This document shows, piece by piece, positions 3,622 through 53,153 of a stretch of 64,000 bases of DNA (within the stretch, counting starts at the first letter, position 1; every line of letters starts with the position of its first letter). A program made the translations under genes and the position numbers. The notes beneath the pieces were generated by a model that saw nothing but the letters and a program-made list of their open reading frames with translations, was not told where the DNA came from and did no database searches. Origin of the DNA: Epinephelus fuscoguttatus. Taxonomy: Eukaryota > Chordata > Actinopteri > Perciformes > Serranidae. The stretch is taken from NCBI RefSeq assembly GCF_011397635.1, contig NC_064753.1, positions 30,962,322-31,026,321 on the forward strand, given 5' to 3'.

Positions 3622-4534
3622 AGCCGCTACAAGGAACTTTTAACTGGATATGCAAAAGTCTCTCGTTTCTGCTGATGTCTGTGCGTGACCTACAACAGCA
3701 AATGAGACCATCGGTGTGAAGATAAGCTATTTCTATATAGTGTATATCCATACCTTTAGGAAACTGTCTCCTGGTCCGCCCCAGGTCACTTCCAGGACGA
3801 AACGATTTACGGCACTCAGACGGCACACTTCATCTTACCTAGCTGCTTACATTTATAGTGACTCTTATAAATAGTCGGTATTGCTCCTCCTCGACCCGAC
3901 GTCCGCGGGGAGTTAAAATAGCAGCAATCATCGGGTAAAAGTTCTGTGAAAGCACTGGACTCACCAACAGTCACCCACGTCTCAGTCACACAGAGAAAAT
4001 CCAATCCTCGGGAAGTCAGGAAATACTTCAGGATAAACATTTTGTTCGCTAGCGATCTAGCATTTACCAGCCCAATCCTGGCAGGAGCCGGCGTGTCCAC
4101 AGCGTTAGCTGTCCGGGGAACCACACACAGAGGCCACAGGTACCAGCCAGGCGTCGACAGGGTCCAGCGAGTGCCGAGAAATAAAGAGGCGAGGCACCGC
4201 TCCATACTCAGTCCAAGAAGCCGTGGGAGTGCTCGCCAAACAGGCCTTCAGCCTTACCAGCAGACTGCTGCGTTTACCCTGGCGGCGGTGGTGCTTACAC
4301 CGGAGAGGTGGAGGTGGGGCGGGGCAGAGGTGAGCTGGGATCCCCGATAAAGTTTTCCCATCTTGTTGTTTCATTCATCCCCAAAACAAACTCATGTGCA
4401 AGCCAGGTAAGCGTCTTTACGACAATACGTGCTAGAGCTCATGGGAAATGTAGGCTTCATTCTGGCAAAACACTACTGCTTTTGTCCACAGGGTCACCAA
4501 AATCAACTCAAAATGAAAGTTCCTTGTAGGGGCT
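3622..4534. mobile_element. TTAA-flanked DNA element enclosing LINE sequence
   Basis: The element starts AGCCGCTACAAGGAACTTT, and the reverse complement of its right end reads AGCCCCTACAAGGAACTTT: a terminal inverted repeat of about 19 bp with one mismatch. Both sides abut TTAA (3618-3621 and 4535-4538), as expected for piggyBac or Kolobok integration. The 913-bp body contains a minus-strand LINE-like endonuclease fragment, annotated separately. No transposase remains, so this is a non-autonomous element that either captured or was later hit by a LINE. Confidence 0.7.
3816..4205 (-). pseudogene. LINE endonuclease-domain fragment
   Basis: This minus-strand open frame of 129 codons contains the signature of non-LTR retrotransposon apurinic endonucleases: a VNARSLANK block followed by a 'DFLCVTETW' block, where the E of TETW corresponds to the active-site glutamate region. 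It then continues with the 'LLPDDCCYFNSPRTSGRGG' block common in fish LINEs. It covers only the N-terminal part of an endonuclease domain; the later catalytic His and the whole reverse transcriptase are absent. It lies wholly within the TTAA-bounded element at 3622-4534. Clade not assigned. Confidence 0.75.
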
Positions 4535-8180: not shown

Positions 8181-8796
8181 ATGTATTATACGATGATGGG
8201 AGCTTATTTTTAAAAGATATGAGGCACAGAGACATTTCAAAGAGCACAAAGAACTCCCTTTGCCACTTTGAGTGCATTTAAATCACACTGTATTTCATTT
8301 TAATCAGTTTGAAATGCATTATTTGTATGTCAGAGAGTCTTGAAAGACTGGTACAAATAAATAACAATTTGACTGTTTTGTATAAAAAAGTCAAAGTGGT
8401 TTCAGGAGATATTTAGGAACTATTAAGTGCCATGTAGCATACTTATGTGTGTACATTAGGCAAAAAAATTAAAATGGTTATGCTCTCCATTCATAGAACA
8501 TGTTTTTATTGTCTGTATACCGAGGGCATGTACAGAGTTTGGTAAGCGAGCATTTATGTATGCAGCTCCTTATATGTGGAATCTTCTGCAGAAGGACTTA
8601 AAGGACAACTTCGGTATTTTTCAACCTGGGCCCTATTTCCCCATGTGTATGTGTGCGTATGATTCATAGGTACAACTCCGGATGCAGCCGGCAGTCGCAA
8701 AACAAGCTAAAATGGTAACGGGGGCAAACATGTCACGTATAAGTTTGCGCATTAAAAGTGCTTTTTTTCGCCACTGACCAGTTCAGATCGCCAGTG

Positions 8797-9252
8797 TTAC
8801 CTCTGTAAATAGCATACTAAGCTTTTCGAACATTGTTTATATAACATTACCTCCACTGTGTCTGTAGCTCTCTCTACTCGTGGGACAGCCGTTTTCTTGA
8901 GGAAGAGGTGTTTCGGGATTGGATGTCTTCTCTTCTTCGGCTGGCAGTAGTCATCTTGGGAGAAGTGAGCACTGCAGACCCGATGGTCTGCAAGGCGCAG
9001 TGTCTGGACAGGAGTGTTAGCATCCATTTGTAGCACAACTAGCCACAACTTCAGCATCTCGCCGTCCGACAAAGGCAGTCTATGAAAGCTATACGGGGTG
9101 TTGCGCGACATCCTGTTCCTACAATTTGGATAAGCACAAACATAAACCATTGTTTTCAATCGATGCAGTAAAACTCTCAGCTGTACTCCGGGACAACCAG
9201 CTCCACTCGGAGTGGCGCTCAGCATGGCTCCTCTGTTTTCTGCCGGCAACAA
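8797..9252 (-). CDS. THAP-domain zinc-finger protein encoded inside the transposon
   Basis: An open frame of 151 codons. From an internal Met near residue 35 it shows a full THAP zinc finger: 'MVYVCAYPNC' supplies the first two cysteines (C-x3-C), then 'YSFHRLP' with the conserved FH and P, an invariant-type Trp in 'LKLWLVVL', the third Cys and the His in 'CSAHF', and a closing 'LKKTAVPR' that matches the AVP box. THAP fingers bind DNA in the minor and major groove and form the DNA-recognition end of P-element and Kolobok transposases. The catalytic part is absent. The frame runs into the left arm and stops there. A GAG|GTAATG splice donor at about 8851 suggests the THAP exon was once joined to a downstream exon. 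Either start is possible: Met at 9252 or the internal Met before VYVC. Confidence 0.72.
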   Translation of the reverse strand: MLPAENRGAMLSATPSGAGCPGVQLRVLLHRLKTMVYVCAYPNCRNRMSRNTPYSFHRLPLSDGEMLKLWLVVLQMDANTPVQTLRLADHRVCSAHFSQDDYCQPKKRRHPIPKHLFLKKTAVPRVERATDTVEVMLYKQCSKSLVCYLQR

Positions 9253-9254
9253 GC

Positions 9255-9280
9255 AAAGCTCTCGCGAGATGACGTCACAG
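9255..9280. promoter_or_regulatory. TCTCGCGAGA plus CRE promoter motifs
   Basis: The palindrome TCTCGCGAGA occupies 9260-9269 and is directly followed by the full palindromic cAMP-response element TGACGTCA at 9270-9277. Both are known core-promoter motifs of vertebrate CpG-type promoters. They lie eight bases upstream of the longest start of the THAP frame, on the side expected for its promoter. Function is inferred. Confidence 0.6.
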
Positions 9281-9553
9281 CTGGGAGGAGGTGAAGGGTC
9301 AGGGAAACATTTAGTATGCTATCTACAGAGATAGCACTGGCAATCTGAACCGGTCAGTGGCAACAAAAAGCACTTTTAATGCGCAAACTTATACAGGAAG
9401 CATTTGCCCCCGTTACCGTTTTAGCTTGTTTTGCGGCTGCCGGTTGCATCAATACTCAACTAATTTTAGAACAAGTTGTACCCATGAATCATATGCACAC
9501 ATACACATGTGGAAATAGGGCCCAGGTTGAAAAATACCGAAGTTATCCTTTAA

Positions 9554-11718
9554 AGTTGCTCTCAGTGGTTCCTCTTGGCTGTTTCAAAGCACTATTGCAG
9601 AATTTTTGGACGCAATTTCATATATGCCAATGTCACAGTGTATCTTAGCTGCTCTTTGTAATCATGTGTAGTTGCCATGTTTGTGTTTTTATGGTTCATT
9701 TCTAGTATATGTTAACATATGTTTTGGCTTTTCTTTGTAGTTATGTTATTTTGTGTTTTATACTGCTTGTTTTAGAGCTGTATATTTTTGTTCTGTGTTG
9801 TCTGTCTGTAACTTATGTTGCTTCCTGTCTTGGACACTCTTGAAAAGGAGAATTTCAATCTCAAGAGTTTTTTTCTGGTTAATAAATGAAAATAGAATAA
9901 ATGTAAAGAAATCATCACCTACATCTCTGATCTGTTCAAATACTGAGTGATGTTTCAATAAAGAGAGTGCAGAAAGTTCAAAGAAATGGAAATCCAGTCT
10001 GGATAACGAGCAAATGTAAAATAAAAAAAATGGCTACTGTCTTAAATTTAGTATTGCACTTCCATTAAGTTGGTGGACTCAAACGAGACACATTTAAAAA
10101 AGGAAATGGTAAAACTTGATGCAGCAAAGGCCAACATATCCTGAATTTTTGTTGAAGTGAAGCTCCAAAAACAACAACCAAGCTCCCATGATGGAACCTA
10201 TAGCATATTTTTGTTACACTTGGTATATTCCTGCATCTATTTGTGCCCTTTTCTTGTAACACAGGCACTCTGTTATATATGTATCATCCAGTGGCGTAAG
10301 GTAGCTACAATGGGCCCCAGTGCATGCTATTATGACAGGCCCAGTAGTGTACGCTAATGTGCACATATCGTCTCATCACATGATCCGAGACTTGACACTG
10401 GATAACATTAACACACATCCTAGACAGCAATCATCACTGCATGTCTGTATATATAAAAAATACTAAAGAAAATGTGAAATTATTAATTCAATTTAACAGT
10501 TTATAATAGTTTATTTGGAATGGGAATATCATTTTGTCAAAGATGATTTTAACTATTTTACAAATAAAGACAAAAACAACATGATGGAGACGGGTTTGTC
10601 GTTTTCCAGGGCACATATAGCTACCAAATGGCACCGTTTTTAATTTAATGAGAGTTCTTCTTTGAACACAGGCATATTTTGGTTGTTGGCAGTCACTCAT
10701 AAGGGTCCATTCTCCACCCAACACATTGTTGGGGGGCCCACTCTCTCTTTGGACCTCCCACCTCATGGGCCCAAGTGCAACCACACTGTCTACATTTATG
10801 ACCCTGGTGTCTTCTCTAAGCTTGTGCTTAAATAACCCCTGACACAGTTCCTCTGCAGTCACAGAAGACATTTTATACAAATCTTTTCACAGGCTGAAGA
10901 GTTCTCTGTTTCCAGTAACCTGATCTTCATGTGTAAAATTGGTGAAATTCCCCTTTAAATATGAATCTAAAACAAATATTGTCAGGTTGAAATGTATAAT
11001 GTTTACATATGGGAGAATAAAATCCAGCTTTGCACTAAAACATTCACTCTGAACTGAATGCAGCGTCAACATGAAGAACTGTTGACATGTGAAAATCAAC
11101 ACGTGCTTTGAGTTCACAGTTTTCACAGGTGACATGTTTCTAAGGAGCAACTAACAAAGTATTTGTACCCTGAACAGAAAACAGCCTCACGCACATATCT
11201 GGCTAACAGCAGCAACGCCAAAAAATAATCAATTACATGGACGCTCCCTGCTCGTTCCCCCTCAAAATGAGATCTGCTTTAATCTGACAGAATGATAAAA
11301 CACTTGTGAGTCTCTAATAAGTGTGTCCCCATCTGATGGGCCTCAGGTCCTCTTGACCCAGGGGACCAATTTGAGTGGTACACAGCACATGGTGCCCTGT
11401 GCTGAATTATCGACCCCCACCACCACCACCACTGCAGAGGGGATAAGAGGGAGGCGGATTAGGGTTCAGTTGTCTTGGCAACGTGAGATGCCATCTGTCA
11501 TGTGTGTGCTGATCCACATCGTGTAGCTGAGACATTGTTTTAATTTAATCATTTCCTTACTGCCAGACAGACCTCCTGTTAAAATACAAGAAGTCAGGCA
11601 GCATGTATTTAACAAGCAGGGCTGAGTTTTCACTGAAACTGTGGTGGAATATGTTGTGTTTAGCAACATAAAGCACAGAACTCAGAAACTGTGGATGAAC
11701 CCTTCAAGCAAAGATTTA
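9554..11718. other. Intergenic, no gene seen
   Basis: AT-rich spacer. A patch at 10287-10795 begins CAGTGGCGTAAGG and contains 'gggccc' words near both ends, which resembles decayed hAT-type repeats, but the ends do not pair well enough to call an element. No exon is recognised. Confidence 0.4.
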
Positions 11719-44319: not shown

Positions 44320-52485
<8,166 letters not shown>

Positions 52486-53153
52486 CTTCCCCGCTCGATG
52501 GAGAGCCCAAACAGTCGCAAGAAGGTTCCTCCGTGGCCGTGGTGGTACCGCGTGAAATGAATCACGACGGCACTCACAGCCTCACGCAGTCCTGCACTAG
52601 GAGCATGATGGTGCAAGGCCAGCGTCGTCTGGACTGGATGCTGCGGTCTATTGTTGTGGTGCCCGGTGGATGCAATGTTGTTCCCACCATCTGTTATGGT
52701 ACAGGAGGAGGAGAGGAGAGGGGATGGATGGCGACCAACGCTGTGAGGAGGAGGCAGGGGCAGGGATGTAGTTGCGCTCTCTCTCCTCCAGGTTTGTTGC
52801 GGGATGAGGAGGCAGGAGAGTGCTGCTCTGTTGTGGGGGAGTGGTCATTTGTGATGCTTGAATGGTCACCTTTTGGATCTGATAAACATGTAAAACACAG
52901 GTGCAGTCGGGGGAGGATTTGATCATGTGGAGCTGACCTTTAAAATCGATCACCAGTTATTTTCCTACCTTAAAATGTGAGTTTCTGAACAGCAGCAAAA
53001 TTAGGAGTTCTAATGGAAATTTTATTGTGGTGTGTTTACTTTATTGTGGATTTTATGTCAATTATCATAATCAGAATGTGGGAAGTTGCAGCTCAGAGTA
53101 TTTCATACTTATCAAAAAATGCCAATTATTGACTTTACATGTTTGAATATTAA
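52486..53153 (-). promoter_or_regulatory. tmem178b: tmem178b upstream region
   Basis: The first 250 bases upstream of the ATG are relatively GC-rich and probably hold the 5' untranslated region and promoter. No TATA box is obvious. From about 53,020 AT-rich repeat-flanked DNA begins. Confidence 0.4.

Follow-up and report, generated by a model that had tools for sequence, protein, structure and literature searches.

What kind of transposable element carries a reading frame for a DNA-binding THAP domain, and is that frame kept by selection, by use or by youth? The question is raised by an insertion at positions 8602-9549 of the window, by which the whole analysed stretch of 64,000 nucleotides from Epinephelus fuscoguttatus is meant. 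A first-pass annotation, made from the letters alone, had described it as a non-autonomous Kolobok-like element with an intact THAP domain. Its ends, its relatives in the same genome, its likeness to known transposons and the variation among its copies were analysed as follows.

Element boundaries and insertion site

The element was found to span 8602-9549 exactly, bounded in the window sequence by a TTAA target-site duplication on the left (8598-8601) and on the right (9550-9553), neither assigned to a strand. The left inverted arm (8602-8820, terminus AGGACAACTTCGG) lacks 20 bases that are present in the right inverted arm (9311-9549, terminus AGGATAACTTCGG when read inward on the minus strand), both arms again being without assigned strand. 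Aligned with each other, the arms are imperfect, with 82% identity over 243 columns including the TTAA and one gap of 20 bases; the TTAA flanks and paired arms of the first description were thereby recovered. The arm core gave two matches in the 64-kb window, which are the two arms, and none in 100 shuffles.

The left flank (8460-8597, plus strand) is an open frame of a LINE-like repeat that is broken by the element, and the right flank (9554-9669, plus strand) resumes the same frame once the element and one TTAA are removed, as judged from the joined-flank frame and from comparison with paralogues. The flanks of 8602-9549 joined with one TTAA gave a single open frame; the label LINE is our assumption from the look of the flank peptide, which resembles the end of a LINE. 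The joined-flank peptide, whose first 11 residues were taken from another frame, returned 1,205 candidate places in the own genome, and in 149 of the 150 matches scored (best 150 of 1,205) the repeat ran unbroken across the insertion point; the one that did not is the right flank of the window itself. The element has therefore inserted itself into a single copy of this repeat. The empty sites compared were paralogous repeat copies in the own genome, not orthologous sites, and at these the outcome named beforehand as contrary, empty sites lacking the flanking TTAA, did not occur. The ratio of observed to expected CpG is 0.73 in 8602-9549 versus 0.38 in the whole window, which fits a young or a CpG-rich insertion.

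Reading frame and THAP domain of the window copy

The THAP-bearing frame lies on the minus strand and is open from stop to stop over 8797-9318. From the first in-frame ATG (9225) it encodes 142 amino acids (8797-9225, minus strand, stop codon at 8797-8799), and from the second (9150) it encodes 117. A profile search placed a THAP domain at 8875-9138 on the minus strand: positions 1-86 of the 87 in the Pfam profile PF05485 were matched, and the score of 53.5 bits (E 4e-14) exceeds the curated cut-off, which is 23.9. The nearest solved structure to the peptide was that of THAP1 (E 2e-6). The domain is thus intact, as first described, with its details amended: the spacing of the first zinc pair, given as C-x3-C, is C-x4-C (CAYPNC), and the AVP box is present but reads AVPRVE, against AVPTIF in a paper on Xenopus Kolobok elements (PMC6004289). 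Neither a catalytic domain or DDD/E transposase nor a KolX piece was found in the window copy.

Copies in the genome

Searches were performed in the own genome (assembly of 1.047 Gb, 26 contigs). With the whole element as query 1,182 candidate places were obtained, of which the best 40 were scored, and the window copy shares 85-92% identity with the other 39. The THAP peptide gave 1,144 candidate places, with no stop in 96 of the best 150, a choice that favours good copies, and a single arm gave 1,856. A 31-base arm pattern with at most one mismatch gave 1,242 matches genome-wide, its reversed control none. Stop-free rows of the THAP and KolX peptide searches, and the 39 elements considered below, were tallied by hand.

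Reading of 90 loci yielded 68 distinct copies. In this set, picked by similarity, 49 of the 68 retain an undamaged THAP frame as far as residue 95; random stops in all copies, the outcome that had been named as contrary to the first interpretation, were therefore not seen, and other copies do share both arms and the frame, as had been expected. Of the first 40 copies, 36 keep an open frame from the ATG as far as residue 88 or further, and 19 have the frame complete. Both ends were located in 66 copies, with TTAA on both sides in 54 and on one side in 12. The usual family terminus is AGGATAACTTCGGTAT, and AG...CT termini were found in the window copy and in most of the 40.

Copies were also picked regardless of THAP. 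The 40 listed arm matches correspond to 39 elements, of which, among the matches listed, 30 are THAP-homologous, 1 is KolX-like, 4 measure less than 0.55 kb and 4 show no THAP within 510 bases; the THAP frame is intact in 11 of these 30, and one more (L096) was read to residue 43 only. The 100 listed of the 1,242 arm-pattern matches fall at 88 places, 19 beside a THAP match, 8 beside a close KolX match, and 61 beside neither among the matches listed (150 THAP, 60 KolX), so that the 61 may still hold one of these pieces. The arm patterns had no match in viral contigs and none in prokaryote contigs, and the THAP protein had one weak match (30 residues) in viral contigs, without family arms. Subfamily changes at majority positions 130-136 are mirrored in the other arm at 853-859, partly in the same copies, and look as if the arms convert each other.

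Upstream motifs and junction types

Upstream of the THAP frame on the minus strand lie TGACGTCA (9270-9277, exact in 39 of the 68 copies) and the palindrome TCTCGCGAGA (9260-9269, exact in 32), which we take to be CRE-like and core-promoter-like, respectively. An ETS-like CCGGAAG upstream of the THAP start is exact in 48 of the 68 copies and altered in the window copy. Just past the THAP domain, GTGGAG/GTAATG (8845-8856, minus strand) resembles a splice donor, although GAG/GTAATG is without the G that is usual at +5 of the consensus. A second junction type departs at this very point: GTGGAG is followed by GTAATG, as in the window, in 45 of the 68 copies, by the arm's own CAAAGCTCTCG in 21 and by neither in 2 (loci L001, L092 and L093 were left out of this comparison). 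The arm of the second type extends over about 308 bases, promoter-like motifs included. Given the two junction types after THAP, the same THAP piece is retained in no fewer than two derivatives.

Sister elements with a KolX-like piece

One element on contig 8 (L105 and L112, about 42,441,767-42,443,033, its last approximately 80 bases unread) has the arm, motifs and leader of the THAP family to family position 399 and then a different frame with stops; its right arm matches family positions 80-327. The frame resembles the P2X7 intracellular domain, with a match to Pfam PF20478 (P2RX7_C) at E 0.28, below cut-off. When the KolX-like peptide of L105 was searched, 60 places had at least 67% identity, here termed close, among the best 150 scored of 5,045 candidates, and in 31 of the 60 the frame is without stops. 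In the stretch with listed arms, 8 of 14 close KolX places lie within 1.5 kb of a family arm and 6 do not, where chance would give about 0.2% for each (100 arms in about 172 Mb); in the same stretch 19 of 20 THAP places lie within that distance. The KolX-like matches near family arms speak for a single parent type behind both cargoes. The remaining 90 of the 150 scored rows belong for the most part to another KolX-like group, with identities to the L105 piece of mostly 56-60% (e.g. G000:C8:2087026-2087340); its frames are mainly of about 143 amino acids and free of stops, and it may represent a very abundant, young element.

Search for an autonomous relative

No autonomous copy, and no DDD/E transposase with family arms, was found among the matches listed. 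The 100 listed of 1,242 arm matches contain 12 facing arm pairs, 11 of which span 0.8-1.3 kb and one, holding a nested insertion, 2.0 kb. Among the best 150 THAP places and the 60 close KolX places, no THAP lay within 20 kb of a KolX. Two candidates for a longer relative, L085 (1.9 kb) and L094 (2.0 kb), were rejected as ordinary copies with another element nested inside (at 1897-2789 and about 716-1755, respectively); by their look the nested elements are presumably hAT-like. Also rejected as parent was a match to Pfam PF20700 ('Mutator'), which comes from one decayed locus without family arms (G000:C8:32820571-32821763, comprising L092 and L093). The order D ... C-x2-C ... H ... C at this locus may recall the Kolobok lineages with an extra CCHC finger described in PMC9587614. 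Rarity, loss or too great a divergence of the autonomous element could explain why it was not met with, as could a position beyond the matches listed. Of the earlier term 'deletion derivative', the derivation stands as the best reading, while the parent it implies is absent among the arm matches listed.

Relation to known transposons

P elements make an 8-bp target duplication. Drosophila KP, of the P superfamily, is likewise an internal-deletion derivative that keeps the N-terminal DNA-binding part and is widespread, but superfamily and target differ, and P membership of the present family was ruled out on termini and target. A THAP domain is, to our knowledge, not expected in piggyBac. The TTAA target is shared with piggyBac, the termini of which are not 5'-RR; the AG found here rules out piggyBac membership.

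Kolobok elements combine TTAA duplications with 5'-RR termini, which set them apart from piggyBac, and their Kol0 lineage encodes a transposase and KolX, a protein resembling the P2X7 C-terminus or ballast domain, according to PMC9587614. A THAP domain is usual in Kolobok transposases, and the full-length Xenopus elements for ten transposase genes all have AG termini (PMC6004289). The present family has 5'-RR ... YY-3' termini in the form AG...CT and the 4-bp TTAA duplication; it also has a THAP domain, yet this domain is not exclusive to Kolobok. With the Kol0 lineage it shares the TTAA target, the 5'-AG termini, the THAP domain and, through its same-arm sisters, a KolX-like piece, whereas the family element is only about 0.95-1 kb long, without a catalytic domain and without KolX in the same copy. 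Presumed non-autonomous TTAA elements of Kolobok are already known in the Xenopus T2-MITEs, which PMC6004289 presents as short, high in copy number and presumably mobilised by Kolobok; in contrast to these, the present family keeps an open THAP frame, and its terminus is not AGGRR but AGGAT in the majority and AGGAC/AGGAT in the window copy. No THAP-only or KolX-only Kolobok element was found described in the literature, judged from titles and the beginnings of abstracts, and the same-arm sisters with a KolX-like piece are new here. Judged by sequence, these sisters are probably the best evidence for Kolobok membership. Together with the TTAA, the AG termini and the high copy number, they bear out the first assignment as non-autonomous, Kolobok-like and THAP-bearing.

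Divergence and selection

In 33 copies picked by DNA similarity (the 40 minus six with ill-defined ends and the window copy), divergence from the family majority at non-CpG sites was 2.85%, a low value in agreement with the recent activity suggested at the outset. Singletons in the THAP frame of these copies comprised 47 nonsynonymous changes, 16 synonymous changes and 2 stops, against 45.8, 17.2 and 2.1 expected (omega 1.1), while variants found in at least 2 of the 33 copies were 11 nonsynonymous and 10 synonymous (omega 0.48); the contrast between the two classes had p = 0.10. In a tree of 64 copies (4 of the 68 left out) there were 15 nonsynonymous and 8 synonymous changes on internal branches and 131 and 85 on terminal ones, which is no contrast, and internal changes per terminal change numbered 0.106 in THAP versus 0.204 and 0.142 in the two arms. 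Non-CpG divergence was 1.46% in THAP versus 2.75-3.24% in the arms (34 copies, the 40 minus six with ill-defined ends). When all changes in the 40 copies were counted, 170 nonsynonymous changes, 89 synonymous changes and 6 stops were observed, against 420.5, 179.8 and 22.6 expected from non-coding sites; synonymous changes being lowered as well, only about 11 stops are expected once scaled by them. The lower divergence and fewer changes in THAP could come from constraint on source copies, from the choice of copies or from poorer alignment outside the frame.

An apparently stronger constraint on the THAP frame, obtained with the first set of copies (Fisher p = 0.014), was not upheld as proof of selection, because that set was picked by similarity, the flank segments differ by subfamily and the 64-copy tree gave no contrast. 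An altered start is common to three copies (L081, L082 and L088). Selection on the frame, the other reading offered in the first-pass annotation, was accordingly not sustained by the singletons, by the contrast with shared variants or by the shared altered start. That the frame is open mostly reflects youth: changes private to one copy look neutral, and shared ones only weakly constrained. We conclude that single insertions drift, with constraint possibly lying in the source lineage.

Origin of the element

We regard the element as a non-autonomous DNA transposon that arose from a Kol0-type Kolobok by internal deletion and was mobilised in trans, with a probability of about 0.8. The parent would have been a Kol0-type element whose long arms held the promoter. 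After the deletion, the derivative would have kept one parent end, with its arm, promoter-like motifs, leader, THAP piece and splice-donor-like site, fused to the arm of the other end. Kolobok transposase supplied in trans would then have produced hundreds of insertions into TTAA, fairly recently, from source copies with an intact THAP frame, and the individual insertions, the window copy included, would since have been drifting neutrally. The copies could yield a small THAP protein, which might bind the arms, by analogy with KP and the P elements.

That analogy leads to a repressor, in which the truncated THAP protein would bind the arms and limit the full transposon, the frame being kept since copies making it survived better. 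KP is itself an internally deleted P element, whose product of 207 amino acids matches the start of transposase over 199, binds P elements and represses transposition (PMC4938643), and the lower omega of shared variants, the lower divergence of THAP than of the arms and the 6 stops against 22.6 expected all point the same way. Against this stand the p of 0.10, the scaling of the stops to about 11, the equal behaviour of internal and terminal branches, the altered start shared by three copies and the fact that no dimerisation domain was seen in the THAP protein, so that we hold a repressor kept by selection to be unlikely. Capture would mean that the arms took up, in Pack-type fashion, the beginning of a host THAP gene, with its promoter, its first exon and the start of its intron, rather than keeping a part of their own transposase. 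The block does resemble the start of a host gene, with CRE-like, TCTCGCGAGA and ETS-like motifs, an exon and a donor-like site, and a THAP domain alone is no proof of transposase origin; the sister cargo behind the same leader, however, is KolX-like, a reported Kolobok protein (PMC9587614), so that one parent explains both cargoes, and Kolobok transposases usually carry THAP (PMC6004289). Capture is on these grounds distinctly improbable.

Two further readings give the pieces a present use. Kol0 might survive here as a split system of small elements with the same arms and promoter, one kind with THAP and one with KolX, which could both still produce their proteins and would jointly act in trans on a source of transposase that is rare or lost; we think this very doubtful. 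Slightly more doubtful still is that the element would serve as a ready-made alternative first exon making THAP fusions with host genes. The window copy does have the CRE-like motif, TCTCGCGAGA, start codons, the THAP frame and the donor-like site, but its ETS-like motif is altered, its donor lacks the usual +5 G and no host exon was placed around the element.

On the reading as a trans-mobilised Kol0 derivative, an open DNA-binding module does not keep a non-autonomous Kolobok-like element from multiplying, and the sisters with the same arms bear another module from that type of parent. The family would offer a vertebrate counterpart to compare with the fly KP repressor. It would also be a plentiful source of small DNA-binding exons, equipped with promoter-like and splice-like signals, that could give rise to new host regulators.

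Neighbouring frames

Two other frames on the minus strand of the window were noted. The frame at 3816-4247 had no Pfam match and is presumably a piece of a LINE endonuclease. The frame at 51928-52581, on the same strand as the THAP frame, had a weak match to Pfam Claudin_2 (E 0.003, below cut-off) and is taken by us, from its look, to be the first exon of a TMEM178-type gene.
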